Assembly: GCA_018401755.1 (NCBI GenBank)
Contig: JAGYKJ010000007.1
Coordinates: forward strand, 558,001 to 622,000
Direction of reading: 5' to 3'
DNA from: Litorivicinus sp.
GTDB lineage: Bacteria > Pseudomonadota > Gammaproteobacteria > Pseudomonadales > Litorivicinaceae
Length of the DNA: 64,000 bases
The translations under genes were made by a program, and so were the position numbers. Below the pieces are notes generated by a model. It ran no database searches and was not told the DNA's origin. It saw only the letters and a list, made by a program, of their open reading frames with translations. How positions within the stretch are numbered: the first letter of the stretch is position 1; each line of letters opens with the position of its first letter. This document shows positions 6,553 through 14,173 of the stretch, in pieces.

Positions 6553-7026
6553 CTATACAGCACGCTCGTCATACACAGCTCCACCAACTCGCTGGTATAG
6601 CCAGCTCGATCGAGAAAGATGCCATCCTAACGGAGTCTTCCAGTCAGTTCGACACCCGATATCAACGCTCCCGTCATCATCTTTGAGGGGCATACAGCGC
6701 ATCTGATAATCACCACGCGCAAGAGCCTGATGACGCCATGACGAGGGCGCCGCAGGGAGCAACCATCGCATCGCGCGGACCTGCACTTGTTCGGACACAT
6801 TAAACGCACCCAGTGAATGCATCTGCCCAAGCCCTGGAGGATCGATCACCAACTGGACCAATCCCACTTTCGCCAGAACTTCTCGCTCGAGTTCGCTGTG
6901 CACTAAAGGCATCGCAATCGCCCACCAAGCCATTAACACCGCATGAATGAGCCCGACGCAGGCCGCAAGCATCAATGTCAAGGTCAGGACCGCCTCGATG
7001 ATCGCCTGTCCACTAGCGCGCCGCAT
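6553..7026 (-). CDS. TadE-like pseudopilin of the Tad operon
   Basis: A 157-residue protein with a short basic N terminus, then SGQAIIEAVLTLTLMLAACV, the G-x-x-x-x-E leader and hydrophobic helix of TadE/TadG-type pseudopilins. The rest is a soluble domain with two cysteines (MRCM, IGCR) that could form a disulfide outside the membrane. The ATG at 7026 is chosen because GGAG lies six bases upstream; a longer frame starts at 7056. It overlaps the tadD end by 14 bases and is the last gene of the Tad operon. Confidence 0.72.
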   Translation of the reverse strand: MRRASGQAIIEAVLTLTLMLAACVGLIHAVLMAWWAIAMPLVHSELEREVLAKVGLVQLVIDPPGLGQMHSLGAFNVSEQVQVRAMRWLLPAAPSSWRHQALARGDYQMRCMPLKDDDGSVDIGCRTDWKTPLGWHLSRSSWLYQRVGGAVYDERAV

Positions 7027-7399
7027 CACAGACTCCTGGCGCACCCTGACCGACATAGGCCTCTAAACAGCGCAGCATGGGTGCAATCGGCTCAAGCGCC
7101 GCGGTATTTGGCGCGAGGCCCGCATAGAGCAAAAACTCGCTATGCGCCTGCTTCAGGAGTGCAATGCCCAGGTTATAACGCGCTTCGAAGAGATTCGGTG
7201 TCTCAGCTAAGGCTTTCCGATACGCTGCAATGGCTGTGTCTAAATCATCCCGACGTAAGGCCAAGTTGCCATTCACATAGGCATCTTGCGCACTGGCTTG
7301 CACCGATACCGGCGCAGAAGCTCGTGAGAGGAGATCATTGGGCTGCATCTGTACACAGCCTGTGAGTGCGATCATGCACAGGGTCAGCAAAGGCTTCAT
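7013..7399 (-). CDS. tadD: TadD-like TPR lipoprotein
   Basis: A 128-residue protein with a lipoprotein signal peptide ending in the lipobox LTGC (Cys15) and one to two TPR-like helices around AYVNGNLALRRDDLDTAIAA and NLFEARYNLGIALLKQA. TadD proteins are lipoproteins needed for secretin assembly in the Tad pilus. This one is shorter than usual (about 200-250 aa), so only part of the TPR array is present. Start in an ATGA overlap with the gene before it. Confidence 0.7.
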   Translation of the reverse strand: MKPLLTLCMIALTGCVQMQPNDLLSRASAPVSVQASAQDAYVNGNLALRRDDLDTAIAAYRKALAETPNLFEARYNLGIALLKQAHSEFLLYAGLAPNTAALEPIAPMLRCLEAYVGQGAPGVCDAAR

Positions 7400-7653
7400 C
7401 GATCATTCTCCACTGTTAACACGTAAAGGCTTCCGCGAACCCGCAACCACAGCGTGTCCCTCGGTGACAGTGCAGTCTGCAGGTGTTCCAGTAAAAGCCG
7501 TCTCGCAAAGCGATCTGTTGTGCTCATTGCCGCCCTATACTGGCGCTCCGCCCACGCCACGGATACCGGCGGCTGCTCATCCGCGTAGAGCAGACCGCTC
7601 GCCAGTACCAGGGTGAGAGGTAGCAGGTGGCTACATCTCTTCAGTCTTCGCAT
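7396..7653 (-). CDS. small secreted protein of the Tad operon, unknown
   Basis: An 85-residue protein beginning MRRLKRCSHLLPLTLVLASG, a signal peptide likely cut after YADE or just before it, then an amphipathic segment with many arginines. I do not recognise a family. The ATG at 7653 is supported by GGAGG five bases upstream; a longer frame from 7668 includes that Shine-Dalgarno sequence. It overlaps tadD by ATGA and the DUF192-like gene by 13 bases, so it is expressed with the pilus genes. Confidence 0.6.
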   Translation of the reverse strand: MRRLKRCSHLLPLTLVLASGLLYADEQPPVSVAWAERQYRAAMSTTDRFARRLLLEHLQTALSPRDTLWLRVRGSLYVLTVENDR

Positions 7654-7973
7654 ACCAACCTCCGACATGCCATTAATGAAATCTCAAGTGCGCCGTCTGA
7701 GTGCGGGGGCGCCCAAGCAACCTGCCCTGGATGCAGCCATCGCCATGCCAAGGGATCGCCAGCGTGATCCAGCCAAACCAACCAAAGACTCTCTCGTAAG
7801 GTCCATCCCTGAACCGCCGTCACCTGGGGCAGCCAGATCAGACCATTTGGCACCCCATGAATCCCCCGCAAGCGTCCGATAAAGCCTTTAGCAGCGGGTG
7901 CCGAGACAGCACACATCTGCACACCAAGCACACTGCCATCCAAACTGGGCACTGGAATCACACACTGCTTCAT
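7641..7973 (-). CDS. DUF192-like protein in the Tad operon
   Basis: A 110-residue protein whose middle, GFIGRLRG then WTLRESLWLVWLDHAGDPLAW and LEISLMACR, fits the DUF192 pattern (R-x-x-G-L-M ... V-x-F-L-D-x-x-G ... L-E-L). DUF192 genes are often seen near Tad or type II-like secretion genes, but the role is unknown. No signal peptide is evident. It overlaps tadC by ATGA. The family call rests on pattern only. Confidence 0.55.
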   Translation of the reverse strand: MKQCVIPVPSLDGSVLGVQMCAVSAPAAKGFIGRLRGIHGVPNGLIWLPQVTAVQGWTLRESLWLVWLDHAGDPLAWRWLHPGQVAWAPPHSDGALEISLMACRRLVCED

Positions 7974-8632
7974 GGTGAAAAACGTCCTAGGCTGTGCATG
8001 ATGGAAAAAGCCAACACAAGGAAAAAAGTTGGGAAAAAGCAGATCACAAGTGGAATCAATAATTTTACTGACAACCCATTGGCGGCGCGCTCAAGGCGTC
8101 GCTGGGTCCGTTCGCGAAGCGCTCGCGCTTGTTCAGCCAGTAATGGGGATAAATCAGATCCCTGACGCTCTGATTCCTGCATGGCCAGACCAAGGTCATG
8201 TGCCTCACGAATATTCATTTCTCGAGCAACAGTAAGGATTGCAGCGATACGCTGCTGGCCGGATTCACGGCGACGAAACACAGCCTCACCAAATCGGCCA
8301 ATTGGACTCTCTTTTAACGCGGCTAGCGACTGATCAAACGCAGATCCATGTGCAGCACCACCGGCGATTGCAATACGCATCAAATCAACAAGCCAAGGCC
8401 AGTACATCTGTAGCGCGTATTCTTGACGCCGCCGATCTTGTGATCGCTGGATTTGGCGAATACCTGGAATCAGAATCAAAGGAACAACGGCGGCCAATGG
8501 CCACTGAGGTAGCCAAATCATGGACACGCAGGCGAGACCGATTATGAGGAGCCACGGCGATCGCGCATTTGGCAGCACCAACAGGAGCACCACAACACTC
8601 CACAATCCAGCCATCAAAACATTACTGGACAT
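7970..8632 (-). CDS. tadC: TadC-like inner-membrane platform protein
   Basis: A type II secretion F-domain protein, the inner-membrane platform of the Tad pilus with TadB. Two N-terminal membrane helices, an F domain (MYWPWLVDLMRIAIAGGAAH, EAVFRRRESGQ, LGLAMQESERQGSDLSPLL) and a C-terminal hydrophobic helix LLIPLVICFFPTFFLVLAF are visible. The ATG at 8632 overlaps tadB by 11 bases; a TTG at 8662 is the longer alternative. Confidence 0.85.
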   Translation of the reverse strand: MSSNVLMAGLWSVVVLLLVLPNARSPWLLIIGLACVSMIWLPQWPLAAVVPLILIPGIRQIQRSQDRRRQEYALQMYWPWLVDLMRIAIAGGAAHGSAFDQSLAALKESPIGRFGEAVFRRRESGQQRIAAILTVAREMNIREAHDLGLAMQESERQGSDLSPLLAEQARALRERTQRRLERAANGLSVKLLIPLVICFFPTFFLVLAFSIMHSLGRFSP

Positions 8633-9257
8633 GGCAAAGTCGCCGAACCCACAGGTGGCCAATACTCATCAGACAGCCTGCAATCAGGAGTAATAGATGT
8701 CCGGGCGTGGTCTGTAACACAGCCCAAGTCGCCCCTGGTGTTAATGCAATCGCGCTTGCTGAGAGCAATGGAATCAAGATTGACAGCATGGATGCCTGCA
8801 TCCGGTGGGTCGCGCTCGCTGCCTCAATTTTCAGCCGCAAGCTGCGCGCATCACGGAGTGATCTAGACAGCTCGTCCAGCGTATGTGCCAACGGGCCTCC
8901 GAGCGAGTCCCGCACCACCAAGGTTGCACCAGCAATCTTCAACGCCTCAATCTGAAGGCGCTCACCTCGCTGTAATAGCACTCGGCCAAGACTCAAGGTG
9001 ACCTGACGTTCATGTTGCCATTGCATTAACTCGTCATACACCACCCCTGATTGACTGGCCTGCGCCTCACGGAGCGCTCGGCCCAAGTCATGCCCAGCAC
9101 GCAACTGCCGTGCAAGCACAGCAAAGATGCCGTCGAGTTCCGCATCCAATGCATGACGCAACCGGCTGACACGTCGTCGCTTCTGTACTCCTTGGACGAT
9201 CGAAGGTGCACGCCAGATCAGCATCAAGCACACAAATACCATCACACCGCTGGCCAT
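8622..9257 (-). CDS. tadB: TadB-like inner-membrane platform protein
   Basis: A 211-residue F-domain platform protein. After an N-terminal helix (MVFVCLMLIWR) come FAVLARQLRAGHDLGRALRE, EALKIAGATLVVRDSLGGPL and LDELSRSLRD, then two C-terminal helices. It is expected to work with TadC and the TadA ATPase in pilus assembly. The ATG at 9257 has GGGAGG seven bases upstream and overlaps the tadA end by 16 bases. It is shorter than typical TadB (about 300 aa), lacking part of the N-terminal region. Confidence 0.85.
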   Translation of the reverse strand: MASGVMVFVCLMLIWRAPSIVQGVQKRRRVSRLRHALDAELDGIFAVLARQLRAGHDLGRALREAQASQSGVVYDELMQWQHERQVTLSLGRVLLQRGERLQIEALKIAGATLVVRDSLGGPLAHTLDELSRSLRDARSLRLKIEAASATHRMQASMLSILIPLLSASAIALTPGATWAVLQTTPGHLLLLIAGCLMSIGHLWVRRLCHVQ

Positions 9258-10411
9258 ACAGCAGCCTCCCCCTCTTGACTCCATAGGGTCTCCAGCAGGA
9301 CCTGGTCACCTTCTAATCCAGCGACTCGGGCGATTGCCGTCAACCGACGCTGACCATCCCCTTGTCGACTGACGTGGGCAATGGTATCGATCGCCCCTGC
9401 AATCTGTTCTCGTATGGCGCGAATCGGTATTTCGACTCCAGCCAAGAGGGTTAACATTTCCAGGCGTCTTAGTGCATCGCGAGGTCCATTGGCATGCACG
9501 GTTGTCATGCATCCTCGGTGGCCGGTATTCATCGCCTGCAACATATCAAGCGCTTCTGGCCCTCGACATTCACCCACCACCAAATGATCCGGCCGCATGC
9601 GAAGTGCATTGCGAAGTAAGTCTCGCAAACTCACCGCACCTTGGCCCTCCATATTGGCTGGACGGGTCTCAAGCCGAACCACATGGGGTAAACCAAGCGA
9701 GAGCTCAGCAGCATCCTCAAGCGTGATAATCCGTGCGGACGGCGGCATTGCCTTTGCCAATGCATTGAGGACAGTTGTTTTCCCTGCACCCGTTCCACCA
9801 CAGACCAGAATGTTGTGCTCGGCGTGCACCGCAGATTCGAGAATGCGCTGCGCGACATCGGGAAACATCCCTGTGTCTCGTAGCGCATCCAATGTCTTTA
9901 ACCCCGGTTTGAACTTCCGAATCGTGAGCATCGGACCATCTGGCGAAATGGGAGGAAGCACCGCATTGATCCGACTGCCATCGGCCAACCGGCCATCTGC
10001 TGTTGGCGCTTGCTCGTCCAATCGACGGCCCAAGGGTTCTAGCATCCGTAAAATAGCGCGTCGGCAGAAATCCCCGTCGACAAACTGGTCAGGAACTGCT
10101 TGGATCTGCCCATCGATCTCCACAAAAATCTGGGCATGTCCGACAACCATGACCTCAGAGATATGGGGATTCTCCAAGAGCGGCTGGAGCGGTCCAAAGC
10201 CCAGTAATTCTGACTTTGCCTTCGCTGCAAGCTGTATGTGATCCACGCCTGCATAGCGTGGTAAGCGCATTTGTTCAGATAGAAATCCATCAACAAGGAC
10301 ATCCTGGTTCGGACGCAAGTCAGGATCACCCAAACGGGATTGATTGGCTAAGTATAGGTCGAGATCCGATACCAACTGACGACGGAGATCAAGTGCTATT
10401 TGATCGGTCAT
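9242..10411 (-). CDS. tadA: TadA/CpaF-type pilus assembly ATPase
   Basis: Secretion ATPase of the VirB11/GspE superfamily that powers Flp pilus assembly at the inner membrane. In 389 residues it shows LGFGPLQPLLENPHISEVMV, LDEQAPTADGRLADGSRINA, Walker A GGTGAGKT at residues 205-212, the Asp box ITLEDAAEL, and the Walker B region LVVGECRGPEALDMLQAMNTGH with HANGPRDAL. The length is slightly under the usual 420-470 because the N-terminal extension is short. Start in ATGA overlap with rcpA. Confidence 0.93.
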   Translation of the reverse strand: MTDQIALDLRRQLVSDLDLYLANQSRLGDPDLRPNQDVLVDGFLSEQMRLPRYAGVDHIQLAAKAKSELLGFGPLQPLLENPHISEVMVVGHAQIFVEIDGQIQAVPDQFVDGDFCRRAILRMLEPLGRRLDEQAPTADGRLADGSRINAVLPPISPDGPMLTIRKFKPGLKTLDALRDTGMFPDVAQRILESAVHAEHNILVCGGTGAGKTTVLNALAKAMPPSARIITLEDAAELSLGLPHVVRLETRPANMEGQGAVSLRDLLRNALRMRPDHLVVGECRGPEALDMLQAMNTGHRGCMTTVHANGPRDALRRLEMLTLLAGVEIPIRAIREQIAGAIDTIAHVSRQGDGQRRLTAIARVAGLEGDQVLLETLWSQEGEAAVWPAV

Positions 10412-11375
10412 TGATACACCCCGACCGGGTCTCGCGAGCCGAGCATCGGGGTCACAGAGACCTGTGGTATCTCAATGCGATCGGCCAGTCGTGGGCGCAT
10501 CACCACCCAAAGTTCTCGACGCTCGGTACTTTGCTGTCCCGCTGCAAGTGCGCCAGGTAGACCTTGCCGTGCATGGCCTCGCTCACCTCGCTCAATTCGT
10601 GCCAAAAGGACCGGTAGGCCAAGCGCAAAACGGCGAGTTAATTGAAGCTCTCTCGATGACAAGCCAGGAACCCCATCGAGTTGCACGGCATAGTCCAAGG
10701 CGGTTAACGACAGATCCACATCGAGAGAGACTGCAGTGAGGTCACGCGCTTTCGCAGCCAGCTGAATGTCGAGGCCATAGGGACGAAACTCGGTGGCCGA
10801 CTCCCCTCCGGGAATCGGAATCTCCCCGCCTGCCAAGAGCGTCGTGGTTTCCCCGTCTTCGAGATGCAGCACGCCTTGCGACCAAAGGTTCGCATAGCCA
10901 CGGCGCTCAGCCGCTTGCAATCGACCAAATACGTCCAGATTTAACACGCCCATCGCGTCATCAAACTGTGGATTTAATCCGCGAGAGGTGCCCATGCCTT
11001 GTAACCGAATATCCCCGTTAAGTTGGATATCTAATCCGAACTCCTGGGCAGCTTGTTCACTGACTTCCGTCACGAGCACATCAATTAAATACTGGGAGGG
11101 AACCCCTTCCTCCACGCCAGATACGACAATATCAAAGCGCTGTTGATGCGTACCTCGCAGACACCACAGCACGGTCGCGCCCGGCTGCCGAGCAGACAGC
11201 AGTAACTGCCCTGGCAGGGTTTCTTTCACCGAAATCACCTGCTCATTACCAAGAGCGACATGCTCCACCTTTGGGCACTGCACCAAGGTTGTTCCCCCGG
11301 AGCCAACACGATGCGCTCATTGGCGAACACGTTGGTGCAGCTGCTGACGAAGGCAATCCACAGACACCACTTCAT
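10408..11375 (-). CDS. rcpA: RcpA/CpaC-type pilus secretin, frame-shifted near the N terminus
   Basis: Outer-membrane secretin of the Tad pilus. The long frame (10408-11286) has the pilus N-terminal domain (VALGNEQVISVKETLPGQLL) and the secretin core (VDVLVTEVSEQAAQEFGLDI-like start, EDGETTTLLAGGEIPIPGG, RRELWVVMRPRL). Its signal peptide and first strand (MKWCLWIAFVSSC, ERIVLAPG) lie in another frame from ATG 11375, which overlaps the rcpC stop as ATGA. The two join as APGGTTLVQCP if the G5 run at 11294-11298 had six G. Reconstructed length is about 322 residues, short for the family. A one-base assembly error is the simplest explanation. Confidence 0.82.
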
Positions 11376-12100
11376 GACAGACCCACCGTTACTACTGCGC
11401 GCTTGGGAGCAGCCTGCTTGGGTTGCTGAGCCGGATCAGCAATGGTCTTTAAGGTCACCGACGGACATTGCGAGCGAGCGCACAGTCCAAGGTGCAGGCG
11501 ACCCAAACGCCGGCCGCGCTCGAGCATACGTAACTGCTCCTTCGACAGATGTAGCCAGAGTGTTCGCTGTAACGAATCAGGATCCGTTACGGAGACCGGG
11601 ATGGCTGACAAAATAACTCCATCTTGGTGTCCCGTCTGGCTCTCGAACACGAAGGTTGCATGGGCATCTGGAGGTAACTGCTGGGGGACGCTTTGCGCCA
11701 TCTCAGTTGGCATGCGTAGCATCAGATCTGAGGAGTTTAGCTGTAACGAAATCTGGGCCCGCGGATTGGGGGCGAGCATATGTGCCGCCATCGGAGTCCC
11801 GATTGGGAGCGGTTGCCGAATTAACGGCTGATCGACCCAGATTTCTGTATCGACAGAGACCGCATCGGAGGGCATCCACGCGACCGGATATGCCACCTTC
11901 TGCACCATCTCTGGCGTCAATCGATCACCTGTATTCACGGGCTGCATCAGCACCCATGCCTCGACCAGATCGGGCTCTGGCGCAGGCAATACTGGCCCCT
12001 CAATGACGGTCGGAGTATTCATCATGATTGCAACACCAGAGACTAGAATTGCTGCCGGAATTTGCCAATAGGCTCGTAATACCTCACGCATTGGTGGCAT
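11372..12100 (-). CDS. rcpC: RcpC/CpaB-like Flp pilus assembly protein
   Basis: A 242-residue protein with an N-terminal membrane anchor (IPAAILVSGVAIMM), a SAF-type domain (VLMQPVNTGDRLTPEMVQ, LIRQPLPIGTPMAAHML) and a C-terminal region with SVTLKTI, matching CpaB/RcpC, which binds the secretin in the periplasm. GGAGG lies six bases before ATG 12100. It overlaps its neighbours on both sides. Typical order rcpC-rcpA is kept, but rcpB and tadZ are absent. Confidence 0.83.
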   Translation of the reverse strand: MPPMREVLRAYWQIPAAILVSGVAIMMNTPTVIEGPVLPAPEPDLVEAWVLMQPVNTGDRLTPEMVQKVAYPVAWMPSDAVSVDTEIWVDQPLIRQPLPIGTPMAAHMLAPNPRAQISLQLNSSDLMLRMPTEMAQSVPQQLPPDAHATFVFESQTGHQDGVILSAIPVSVTDPDSLQRTLWLHLSKEQLRMLERGRRLGRLHLGLCARSQCPSVTLKTIADPAQQPKQAAPKRAVVTVGLS

Positions 12101-12434
12101 TGGGAGCCTCCAAAATATTCAACCATGGGCTCATATGTTCTGACCCAATGAGCCAGCCGTGCATCCCGTCGTCGTGTTCAATCACCTGCGCGAGACAGGC
12201 ACCTTTCAGCCAAAAGACATCCCGTTGACTGGTCTCGTCGTGGATACGTAAGCTCTGGAATCCAGAACGCTCTAACCACTCAGTCAACTCATGTGTGGGC
12301 ATCAGAGGCGACCAAGCAATGATGCCAAGGGGACGAATCTGCTCTGTCTGAATACCGGGGTAGTCTTGAAAGCATGCCCAGCTGGCAGAGGGCGAGATCA
12401 ATCCGAGAAGCAAGGCAATGGCAACATTACGCAT
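12084..12434 (-). CDS. small secreted protein of the Tad operon, unknown
   Basis: A 116-residue protein with a clear signal peptide MRNVAIALLLGLISPSASWA, then a soluble domain containing two cysteines (ACFQDYPG, KGACLAQV) that might pair. I do not recognise a family. The start at 12434 is chosen over a 188-codon frame because the signal peptide begins there, AGGA lies nine bases upstream, and it overlaps the previous gene by only eight bases. Position between pseudopilin and rcpC genes suggests an envelope role in pilus biogenesis. Confidence 0.6.
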   Translation of the reverse strand: MRNVAIALLLGLISPSASWACFQDYPGIQTEQIRPLGIIAWSPLMPTHELTEWLERSGFQSLRIHDETSQRDVFWLKGACLAQVIEHDDGMHGWLIGSEHMSPWLNILEAPNATNA

Positions 12435-12897
12435 CGGGACGTATCCTTTTCGGGAGTGGCATATGAAGATCCCCAATGACGCCCACCGCGGTAATGGACG
12501 ATGGGCGAGTTTCAGAGAATGGAGTGGGCGCACCCAACCTCCGGATGAGTTCGACAACAGCCTGCGTCCATTGCAGGTCGCGTGGCTTTGGAATCCAACC
12601 GTCCGCATGGACAGCTGCCAAAAATGGCTCTGTTTCACCGAGGTAGCCATCGCGCGGTAGTAACCGCCCTGACTTCACAATGACTCTGGGAAAATCAGCG
12701 TGTTGCCACTCGATCTGCTGTTCAATTTCAAGCACCGATTGATCATTGAATTGGCCAGACCAAAGGCCCGTTAGAAGGCGATCAAAGGTGCCGTGGGTTT
12801 CTCGCGCCGTCATGGCGAACAATGCGATACAGGTTAGCCCAGTCAGCCAGACAGGAAGCAGTAAAAGGGTCTCGACCAGGGCGGATCCTCGATTCAT
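12427..12897 (-). CDS. TadE/TadF-like pseudopilin
   Basis: A 156-residue protein starting MNRGSALVETLLLLPVWLTG, the short G-x-x-x-x-E leader and hydrophobic helix of Tad minor pseudopilins (TadE/TadF). The remainder is a soluble domain without recognised motifs. Starts in an ATGA overlap with the tadG-like gene. A prepilin peptidase (TadV) would be needed for its processing and is not encoded in this window. Confidence 0.7.
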   Translation of the reverse strand: MNRGSALVETLLLLPVWLTGLTCIALFAMTARETHGTFDRLLTGLWSGQFNDQSVLEIEQQIEWQHADFPRVIVKSGRLLPRDGYLGETEPFLAAVHADGWIPKPRDLQWTQAVVELIRRLGAPTPFSETRPSSITAVGVIGDLHMPLPKRIRPDA

Positions 12898-13898
12898 GGC
12901 CTGGCCCCCACCAGTTCACTGCGCCAGATGGGGCGCCATAAGTCCGCGTCAGCGGACATAAAGCGGGTTCGCGCGACCGAGCTCACTTGCCCAGACTCTG
13001 AGGTACCAACCCCAGCTTCGATTGAGAACAGATTCGGACCGCGCCACTCCAGTACCAAGGGCAGTCCTCGATACACAAACCCATCAAGTAAGGTTGATGC
13101 ATCGCCCTGAGCAATGGTCCGCCAGCGCGTGCCAAACCAGCCCCACCCCAGTTTCAAATCAAGCTCATCCGAGGCCATGAATCCACGTCCGGTCATATCA
13201 GGCATCGTGCGTCCAGATCGACGTGCTTGAAGAATCCCTAGAATCCGGGTTTGCCAGGCTCTTGACTGATGCCAGGCCGCTTGCGGGAGGCCATTTAGTG
13301 CTGCCTCAACAAGCGGAACGTACACCGATGGGTGCGCCTCCATCACTGGCATTGCCATCAACAACATGGCATCAAATGCACTGTCCTGACATAGAGTGGC
13401 AACACACAGCGTCTCAATGGTCAGCGGTGATGCTGCACCCTGTGCAGCCTCTCGAATTCGAGAGCCCCCATCGGTTAGGTGCGCAACCACGTCAAAAGCC
13501 CATTGATGTTGTGTGGCCAATGCCACCCCAATCCCGGCTTGAAGTTGTACCTTGGCAGAACTCACAAGCAGTGATGTACCCCCAGTCACAAGTTGATTGG
13601 CGTAGGGAACAAGGTAGCTTGCACGATCCAAGACATTTTTTAAGTAGCGGGTAAAGCTCAGGTAACTGGTCAAATGGGCCACCATCAGATGGCTCGCTAA
13701 AATACGGCGGTTCAAAACAGCCATCGCGTTGAATTCGGTCGCCAATTGGCTCGCGGCAGCGTAGGCAACCCGGTCAGCCACCTGGTGGCCCTCAAATCGC
13801 GCCATTAAGTGGGTGGATTGCGACAGCCACACCAGCAATGCTGCGATTGCAGGGAGCAGCACCACGCTCAACACCAGTGCGAATCCCTGCTGTCGCAT
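12894..13898 (-). CDS. TadG-like pilus-associated protein
   Basis: A 334-residue protein with the N-terminal helix FALVLSVVLLPAIAALLVWL and the following VADRVAYAAASQLATEFNAM, which matches the TadG/Flp-pilus N-terminal helix and its A-x-x-A-A-x-x-A pattern. TadG anchors or shapes the pilus in the envelope. It lacks a von Willebrand A domain, which some TadG proteins carry. Start overlaps the flp stop as TAATG. Confidence 0.68.
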   Translation of the reverse strand: MRQQGFALVLSVVLLPAIAALLVWLSQSTHLMARFEGHQVADRVAYAAASQLATEFNAMAVLNRRILASHLMVAHLTSYLSFTRYLKNVLDRASYLVPYANQLVTGGTSLLVSSAKVQLQAGIGVALATQHQWAFDVVAHLTDGGSRIREAAQGAASPLTIETLCVATLCQDSAFDAMLLMAMPVMEAHPSVYVPLVEAALNGLPQAAWHQSRAWQTRILGILQARRSGRTMPDMTGRGFMASDELDLKLGWGWFGTRWRTIAQGDASTLLDGFVYRGLPLVLEWRGPNLFSIEAGVGTSESGQVSSVARTRFMSADADLWRPIWRSELVGARP

Positions 13899-14173
13899 TA
13901 GTTACCGCCCAAACGCGCGTTCTGGCCCACATAATTTCCAAGGTGTCGTGATGCAGCCGCCTGGGCCTGGGCTTGTACTGCGTTTCCTTCGGCAATTGCC
14001 ACAGCGGACGATCCGTCTTGACCCGCAATTTCATTGGCCATCGCGGCCACCTGGGAACGGACAGTCCCACCTAGGAAACCCACTGCAGCGATAGACGCAA
14101 CCGCAATGAGTCCCACAATCACCAAATATTCCGACAAACCTTGGCCTGTTTGACGATGACTCCACTTCTTCAT
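13898..14173 (-). CDS. flp: Flp-type pilin
   Basis: The major pilin candidate, 91 residues. It begins MKKWSHRQTGQGLSEYLVIV, with the Flp leader G followed by L-S-E-Y (Glu at +5 after the cut) and a hydrophobic helix ending in a Gly-rich turn, then an Ala/Gln-rich tail. It is longer than the usual 50-70 residue Flp pilin. GGGAG lies six bases before ATG 14173. First gene of the leftward Tad operon; its promoter should lie in 14174-14280, where no clear boxes are seen. Confidence 0.85.
   Translation of the reverse strand: MKKWSHRQTGQGLSEYLVIVGLIAVASIAAVGFLGGTVRSQVAAMANEIAGQDGSSAVAIAEGNAVQAQAQAAASRHLGNYVGQNARLGGN

Follow-up and report, generated by a model that had tools for sequence, protein, structure and literature searches.

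A Tad pilus operon without TadZ in Litorivicinus and its relatives among other Tad loci

The cpa locus of Caulobacter and the tad locus of Aggregatibacter are canonical Tad/Flp pilus loci and carry a TadZ gene. A 64,000-nucleotide stretch of DNA from Litorivicinus sp. (assembly GCA_018401755.1, contig JAGYKJ010000007.1, positions 558,001 to 622,000), referred to below as the window, contains a Tad (type IVc/Flp) pilus operon of 13 genes on its minus strand (6553-14173) in which tadZ, tadV and rcpB are all missing from the locus. This raises the question whether such an operon arose by local reduction or represents a wider group of Tad systems. A preliminary description, made from the sequence alone, had suggested a streamlined Tad variant that uses a prepilin peptidase encoded elsewhere and has new minor components. 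The comparison of Tad loci presented here indicates that the operon probably belongs to a lineage of Tad operons that have neither a TadZ gene between rcpA and tadA nor a TadV of their own. Gene content, conservation, the presence of one PilD, the lineage and a frameshift in the assembly are established by the analysis.

A branch of Tad loci without TadZ

The comparison set comprised 89 loci. The best 80 of 515 loci, ranked by likeness to the RcpA of the genus, provided 77 of them after exclusion of the genus copies L038-L040, and 12 more were TadA matches among 57 relatives; one distant TadA match (G043) was left out. The window genome is designated G000, and L027, L028 and L029 are the loci of the relatives G006, G003 and G002, respectively. 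TadA was found in 87 of the 89 loci (not in L041 and L063). A gap separates rcpA and tadA in 60 of these, the two genes abut in 18 and no RcpA partner was present in nine. All but one of the 60 gaps hold an open reading frame (ORF) of 394-542 amino acids, which is the size of TadZ. As a simple ParA motif scan had missed the TadZ of Pseudomonas, gap size and a TadZ profile built from the gap ORFs were used as the test for TadZ. No match to the profile was obtained in the 18 abutting loci, as against 69 among the 71 remaining loci, the source loci matching by construction. With the genus DUF192 profile (E ≤ 0.05, any position within the locus), a match was obtained in 13 of the 18 abutting loci versus none of the 60 gap loci. 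The abutting loci without this match are L030 and L031, which end soon after tadC, L034, which has none between tadC and tadD, L036 and L088.

A TadA tree was calculated from 40 of 90 rows after the removal of 50 closely similar ones from the gap group. The TadA proteins of 17 of the 18 abutting loci and three genus rows were separated from the rest by a branch with support of 100/98, and the same branch was recovered with the ATPase core alone (99/96). In the window locus rcpA abuts tadA with no ORF between them, a DUF192-like gene follows tadC and TadA lies in the same branch; the operon is a member of this TadZ-less, mostly DUF192-bearing branch. TadZ/CpaE was not treated as a defining component of Tad systems because it is missing from the whole branch. 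No description of such a lineage was found in searches of the open-licence literature, although it may be in print elsewhere.

The TadA/CpaF ATPase of the window (9242-10411, minus strand, as are all genes of the operon; 389 amino acids) matches T2SSE with an E value of 2.5e-51 from residue 71 onwards. This leaves no room for the N-terminal FHA domain that was seen in eight of the 12 sister TadAs scanned (L031, L037, L088, L124, L125, L126, L127 and L128), and no FHA was among the 25 of 35 families listed by the Pfam scan of the window protein. Only a related T3SS-type domain was found in the TadA of L034, and no FHA reached the threshold in L030, L042 and L057. The consulted part of a CpaF article (PMC11300603) has no occurrence of FHA. 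Relatives of this ATPase are encoded in Tad loci, and TadA also matches proteins on plasmids that are annotated as CpaF family. A recent plasmid origin of the operon was rejected, as the best plasmid matches cover about 4% of it and lie in tadA. One sister locus, L088 from an Oligoflexia bacterium (Bdellovibrionota), has rcpA abutting a gene for an FHA-fused TadA and a recombinase-like ORF nearby; it is possibly linked to predatory Tad-like systems.

The window operon shares RcpA, a homologous TadA and the neighbouring Tad genes with canonical TadZ-bearing loci of the Pseudomonas type (for example L043), but differs from them in lacking TadV, RcpB and a TadZ gene between rcpA and tadA, and in carrying instead a DUF192-like gene and a gene for a protein in the slot between tadE and cpaB. 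The loci of Idiomarina and Aliidiomarina (L042, L050, L057 and L071) have the order flp-tadG-tadE-slot-cpaB-rcpA-tadA-tadB-tadC-DUF192-tadD, with rcpA abutting tadA as in the window, but their slot proteins are larger (170-261 amino acids), the gene for an 85-amino-acid protein is absent and TadD keeps its first TPR. This gene order is shared by the Idiomarina loci L042 and L057 and by L125. L042 and L057 further resemble the window in that no FHA was found on TadA and a pilin-like gene follows tadD, and they differ by an extra small pilin-like gene before cpaB and a slot protein with no obvious signal peptide. The Kil system of Myxococcus xanthus, as described in the available part of PMC8460266, is Tad-like with an FHA-fused ATPase (KilF), a secretin that is called uniquely short and lacks N0, and pilins that are possibly cut by PilD. 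By this published description alone, Kil resembles the window system in its short secretin and possible use of PilD, and many sister TadAs in the FHA-bearing ATPase. It is set apart by the reported lack of TadG and TadD, both of which are encoded in the window, where TadA carries no FHA.

Absent genes and conservation of the operon

The locus encodes a TadA/CpaF-type ATPase, a TadB/TadC pair, a pilin with the Flp motif, RcpA and RcpC/CpaB, and it lacks TadZ/CpaE, a dedicated TadV and RcpB/CpaD. Positions 6553-14173 are a Tad (type IVc) pilus locus that is real and conserved. In the part of Denise et al. 2019 (PMC6668835) that was consulted, TadZ is described as a polar hub that recruits other Tad parts; the initial Tad model of that work allowed tadV to be located elsewhere and to be exchangeable with pilD, and the final model adds tadD, rcpB and rcpC as accessory genes and no longer treats TadV as exchangeable.

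The absence of tadZ from the locus, already stated in the preliminary description, was confirmed, and a search of the whole genome returned only ParA/MinD-type ORFs elsewhere and no dedicated TadZ. PF16968 (TadZ_N) had no match in G000, which is a weak test given that the control matched in 2 of 14 genomes. A search of G000 with the TadZ of L032 yielded four weak matches (E 0.002-0.05) to ORFs of 257-301 amino acids, none near the operon; by eye, one of them adjoins an FlhF-like and one a ParB-like ORF. The TadZ profile was scanned against the window, L027-L029, L035 (the PilD locus) and the four loci from the search with the L032 query. Its only matches in these pieces were the same four ORFs of G000 (E 3e-18 to 4.7e-6), as is expected of MinD/ParA relatives. 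The reported lack of rcpB was likewise confirmed, the best PF09476 match in the genome having an E value of 0.165, under the cut-off and outside the operon.

A prepilin peptidase shared with another system had been proposed, and the search with PF01478 (A24) bears this out. The sole plausible peptidase of G000 is PilD at C2:87640, which adjoins pilC, pilB and pilA; a second match (E 0.025) sits in a 665-amino-acid frame. Nine genomes of the sister lineage outside the genus were compared. Eight of them (G022, G027, G037, G041, G044, G051, G052 and G055) have exactly one A24 match, which lies either 1.8 Mb away from the Tad locus or on a different contig, and the ninth (G024, 78% complete) has none. 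A second, short A24 match near tadA was found in G042, G048 and G046. Within the genus, the match was detected in all four operon-bearing genomes versus five of 18 without the operon (six if one at E 0.08 is counted), many of them incomplete. Exceptions to a simple A24 rule are G009, with two matches and no Tad match, and G033 and G036, with a second weak match. The PilD region of G000 (L035:5548-8949, on C2) is a type IVa locus with pilA, pilB, pilC, pilD and coaE, in which the open frame of pilB overruns about 290 bases into pilC, so that the end of pilB may be frameshifted.

All 13 genes are syntenic in L027 and L028, and the claim of a 13-gene Tad operon is thus borne out by identical gene content and order in two relatives of the genus. 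L028 runs on into galU and ugd, as does the window. In L029 the genes from flp to tadA are in order and the contig ends inside tadA. A TadA match at E ≤ 1e-30 was found in 17 of the 57 relatives, and a close TadA (63-71% identity) was found in four of 22 genus genomes (G000, G002, G003 and G006). The operon is patchily distributed in the genus and may be decaying patchily. Operon-bearing relatives have been deposited as Litoricola sp. (L039 and L040) and as an uncultured gammaproteobacterium (L038). The G000 genome measures 2.19 Mb in 7 contigs and is 99% complete, genome sizes in the family being 1.1-2.3 Mb. The G+C content of the window is 53.7%; the consulted part of PMC8269220 gives 58.8% for Litoricola lipolytica versus 47-51% for the neighbouring OM252 group, and the main text of this article on OM252 genomes is without the terms pili, pilus and tad.

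Components of the operon

The 13 genes abut or overlap one another in the order flp, tadG-like, tadE-like, a gene for a 116-amino-acid protein, rcpC/cpaB, rcpA, tadA, tadB, tadC, DUF192-like, a gene for an 85-amino-acid protein, tadD and a second tadE-like gene. Prepilin-type proteins are recognized by their cleavage motif, which includes the G|xxxxEY site of the short Flp pilin. The predicted major pilin Flp (13898-14173, 91 amino acids) has the motif G|QGLSEY ahead of a hydrophobic segment and matches Flp_Fap with an E value of 0.044; it is 80% identical to the L028 copy, and the Idiomarina loci share the position as first gene and the type of motif. The tadG-like gene (12894-13898, 334 amino acids) encodes an N-terminal pilin-like segment (PilX_N E 0.0018, Tad E 0.15). 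It is kept in L028 and L029 and interrupted in L027, and the L028 copy has no PilX_N or Tad match. The first tadE-like pseudopilin (12427-12897, 156 amino acids, motif G|SALVE) has no Pfam match in the window and a TadE match under the cut-off in L028 (E 0.0015). For the second (6553-7026, 157 amino acids, motif G|QAIIE) the opposite was observed, with a TadE E value of 0.18 in the window and no Pfam match in L028; it is 48-52% identical in L027 and L028. These pilin-like genes stay under the Pfam cut-offs or have no match; they were accordingly named flp, tadE and tadG by their position, their motif and the weak matches.

RcpC/CpaB (11372-12100) has a SAF domain, with TIGR03177 under its cut-off at E 7e-9 and the SAF match of the L028 copy over it at E 3.7e-5. 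The putative membrane platform proteins TadB (8622-9257) and TadC (7970-8632) match T2SSF over the cut-off (E 4.4e-7 and 5.2e-9; L028 TadB E 1.9e-6). Counted from ATG they have 211 and 220 amino acids (scanned as 220 and 230), and each contains a single T2SSF stretch. TadD (7013-7399) is a TPR protein (TPR_11 E 1.4e-8, over the cut-off) with a lipobox-like start and likely a secretin pilotin; TadD is the RcpA pilotin in P. aeruginosa according to the consulted part of Tassinari et al. 2023 (PMC10499894). The genus TadD (128 amino acids) aligns with sister TadDs at a profile E value of 9.2e-16, with most of the first TPR missing.

The gene downstream of tadC (7641-7973, 110 amino acids) had been called DUF192-like. 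The window protein itself has no match in Pfam, and the assignment is upheld through its relatives: the genus profile A3 matches seven proteins from Idiomarinaceae Tad loci (E 6e-7 to 2.9e-5) and, at E ≤ 0.05, proteins of L124 and L128, which in turn match Pfam DUF192 at E 1.4e-18 and 2.8e-19.

The preliminary description of two small proteins with no recognized family is supported; both are conserved genes found in operon-bearing genomes, and neither is RcpB by Pfam or NCBIfam, with no match in the former and only a chance-level one in the latter. The 116-amino-acid protein (12084-12434) has a signal-peptide-like start (signal peptides were assigned by eye) and two invariant cysteines, C21 and C80. 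It belongs to no Pfam family, and its single NCBIfam match (E 0.025, to an unrelated family) is at chance level; no relative was found among PDB sequences, and one PHROGs match (E 0.043) covers residues 1-26, the signal-peptide-like part. The protein is present in four of the 57 relatives, the same four that have a close TadA. Among 390 genomes of the order it was found in G000, G002 and G003, together with three weak matches (E 0.007-0.0095), one of which runs through two stops. An AlphaFold model with a mean predicted local distance difference test score (pLDDT) of 74.9 has a mixed alpha/beta fold. No fold match was accepted, as Foldseek gave no PDB entry at E ≤ 0.001 (best 0.086) and VIA-align a best Z of 5.1; the weak rows DcrB, EagT6, PsbP and PA94, which seem to belong to one fold class, are all at a level that the tool calls common. 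The slot between tadE and cpaB was inspected in 15 of the 18 abutting loci (L051, L059 and L066 were left out). In 12 of them (L030, L031, L034, L037, L042, L050, L057, L071, L124, L125, L127 and L128) it holds an ORF of 75-300 amino acids, some with a signal-peptide-like start and others with none; L088 has no recognizable tadE or cpaB, and L036 is of another type. Given that 12 sister loci also fill the slot, the 116-amino-acid gene could represent a rapidly diverging form of a lineage component, and by its position the protein is a possible counterpart of the sister slot proteins.

The 85-amino-acid protein (7396-7653) also has a signal-peptide-like start and is 50% and 44% identical to its conserved copies in L027 and L028. 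It was found in three of the 57 relatives (G000, G003 and G006), all with the operon; in G002 the contig ends inside tadA. Its AlphaFold model (pLDDT 77.7) has three main helices. No match was obtained in Pfam or PHROGs, matches to PDB sequences were at chance level, and the best Foldseek E value was 0.9. The idea of new minor components is thus retained for this protein, which is found in the genus only, and weakened for the 116-amino-acid protein, whose slot is also occupied outside the genus. In L127 (4895-6592) and L128 (13812-15494) a protein of 560-565 amino acids takes the place of the 85-amino-acid protein between DUF192 and tadD; the one of L128 looks FHA-like by eye.

Alternative readings and proposed working

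Several observations weigh against the reading of the operon as a member of a TadZ-less lineage with a shared peptidase and lineage-specific parts. The matches of flp, tadG and tadE are all under the Pfam cut-offs, and PilD of G000 scores 21 bits versus a cut-off of 26.5. The best TadZ-profile match in G000 is a MinD-type ORF of 275 amino acids with an E value of 3e-18, so a shared FleN/ParA-type protein may stand in for TadZ. In L036 (G046) rcpA abuts tadA, yet its TadA groups with TadZ-type loci and a short A24 peptidase is present; TadZ absence is accordingly not unique to the branch, and L036 is likely a separate loss or relocation of TadZ. In L126 the 1.46 kb ahead of cpaB contain neither a slot ORF nor tadE. 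The 116-amino-acid protein could not be linked to the sister slot proteins by profile (no match; hhalign probabilities of 0.4 and 0.1%), and a pooled local alignment was marginal (417 versus a shuffled mean of 385, with 10 of 300 shuffles as high), its signal being led by the same-family loci L031 and L030. An origin of the 85-amino-acid protein by splitting of the first TPR from TadD would be attractive, since this repeat is largely missing from TadD, the model is helical and some weak Foldseek rows are TPR domains; this was rejected, as the sequence tests failed (an E value of 0.03 by hhalign and, in a separate shuffle test, 112 of 300 shuffles as high) and a larger protein lies in the same slot of L127 and L128. 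Finally, the compared loci are a non-random sample.

Further alternatives concern the state of the operon in G000. The ATG of rcpA at 11375 overlaps the rcpC stop and opens a signal-peptide-like frame (11287-11375) that ends after 46 codons, and the predicted secretin body lies in another frame (10408-11286; Secretin E 1.3e-4 and pilus N-terminal domain E 8.1e-5, both under the cut-offs). The frames diverge near a G run at 11294-11298. The L028 RcpA is over the Pfam cut-off for both domains, and the genus RcpA profile matches RcpA of P. aeruginosa (8odn) at E 1.8e-8. Programmed frameshifting was rejected because rcpA of L027, L028 and L029 lacks the run and reads through the break point; L029 has a short N run further on. 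The copies of these relatives are also short (about 313-334 amino acids), and the short RcpA of the window is partly a frameshift in the assembly. TadA, TadD and RcpA had all been described as unusually short, and this stands for TadA, with no room for FHA, and for TadD, but only in part for RcpA. With the frame broken as in the assembly the pilus is probably not exported, unless the break is a sequencing error. That the frameshift is an assembly error only, and that G000 makes the normal pilus of the lineage, is an account to which we give slightly less than an even chance. Homopolymers are a common type of sequencing and assembly error, the break is at or near one, and the remaining operon genes are uninterrupted; however, ORFs in the remainder of the 64 kb look long and ordinary by eye, which argues that errors are not frequent in the window.

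A decaying remnant, in which an inherited Tad locus is being lost in the genus and some of the short or broken genes are products of degeneration and not of design, is considered unlikely. Besides the rcpA frameshift, such a remnant would explain L027, where flp carries a frameshift and tadG is broken by several stops next to ORF fragments judged integrase-like by eye (L027:6648-9900, G006), and the restriction of the operon to four of 22, in many cases incomplete, genus genomes. Nevertheless, all 13 genes are open in L028, gene order and TadZ absence extend beyond the genus, and most proteins are encoded in open frames with about 29-80% identity between species. Draft assemblies could account for the frameshifts in both the window rcpA and the L027 flp, and the L027 lesions thus reflect either decay in places or draft errors. 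Local streamlining, with TadZ, TadV and RcpB dropped in G000 and new minor parts gained, is very improbable and largely refuted for TadZ and TadV: small genomes in the family and the confinement of both small proteins to the genus (barring three weak matches) would favour it, but TadZ absence and gene order are common to a wider set of Tad loci, TadZ being absent from 17 further loci whose TadA falls in this branch, eight of nine sister genomes having their A24 peptidase elsewhere than at the Tad locus and the slot of the 116-amino-acid protein being occupied in 12 sister loci.

For the preferred reading, that of a TadZ-less lineage, a working scheme can be proposed in which we infer all biochemical roles. 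PilD from the type IVa pilus locus would cut Flp and the TadE/TadG-like pseudopilins. A TadA hexamer would drive TadB/TadC to extrude the Flp fibre, which would pass the RcpA secretin, placed in the outer membrane by the TPR lipoprotein TadD, with RcpC providing a link in the periplasm. The 116-amino-acid protein, possibly the local version of the sister slot protein, and the DUF192-like protein would be lineage accessories, and TadD may have a small helical partner in the 85-amino-acid protein. The pilus would likely serve in attachment to surfaces or particles.

More tentatively, and with somewhat less confidence than an even chance would warrant, the lineage may be a distinct Tad class in Idiomarinaceae, several families of the order to which the window belongs and perhaps Bdellovibrionota. 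Such a class would operate without TadZ positioning, would borrow PilD and would often sense through FHA on its ATPase, and the slot protein (with the 116-amino-acid protein as its local form) and DUF192 would take over RcpB-like duties at the secretin or in gating of the fibre. A well-supported TadZ-less branch would mean that there is another way to place and assemble a Tad machine, and it would offer a compact model with a shared PilD for the roles of TadZ, DUF192 and the slot protein. In this plankton genus, the operon would mark a patchy surface-attachment trait.

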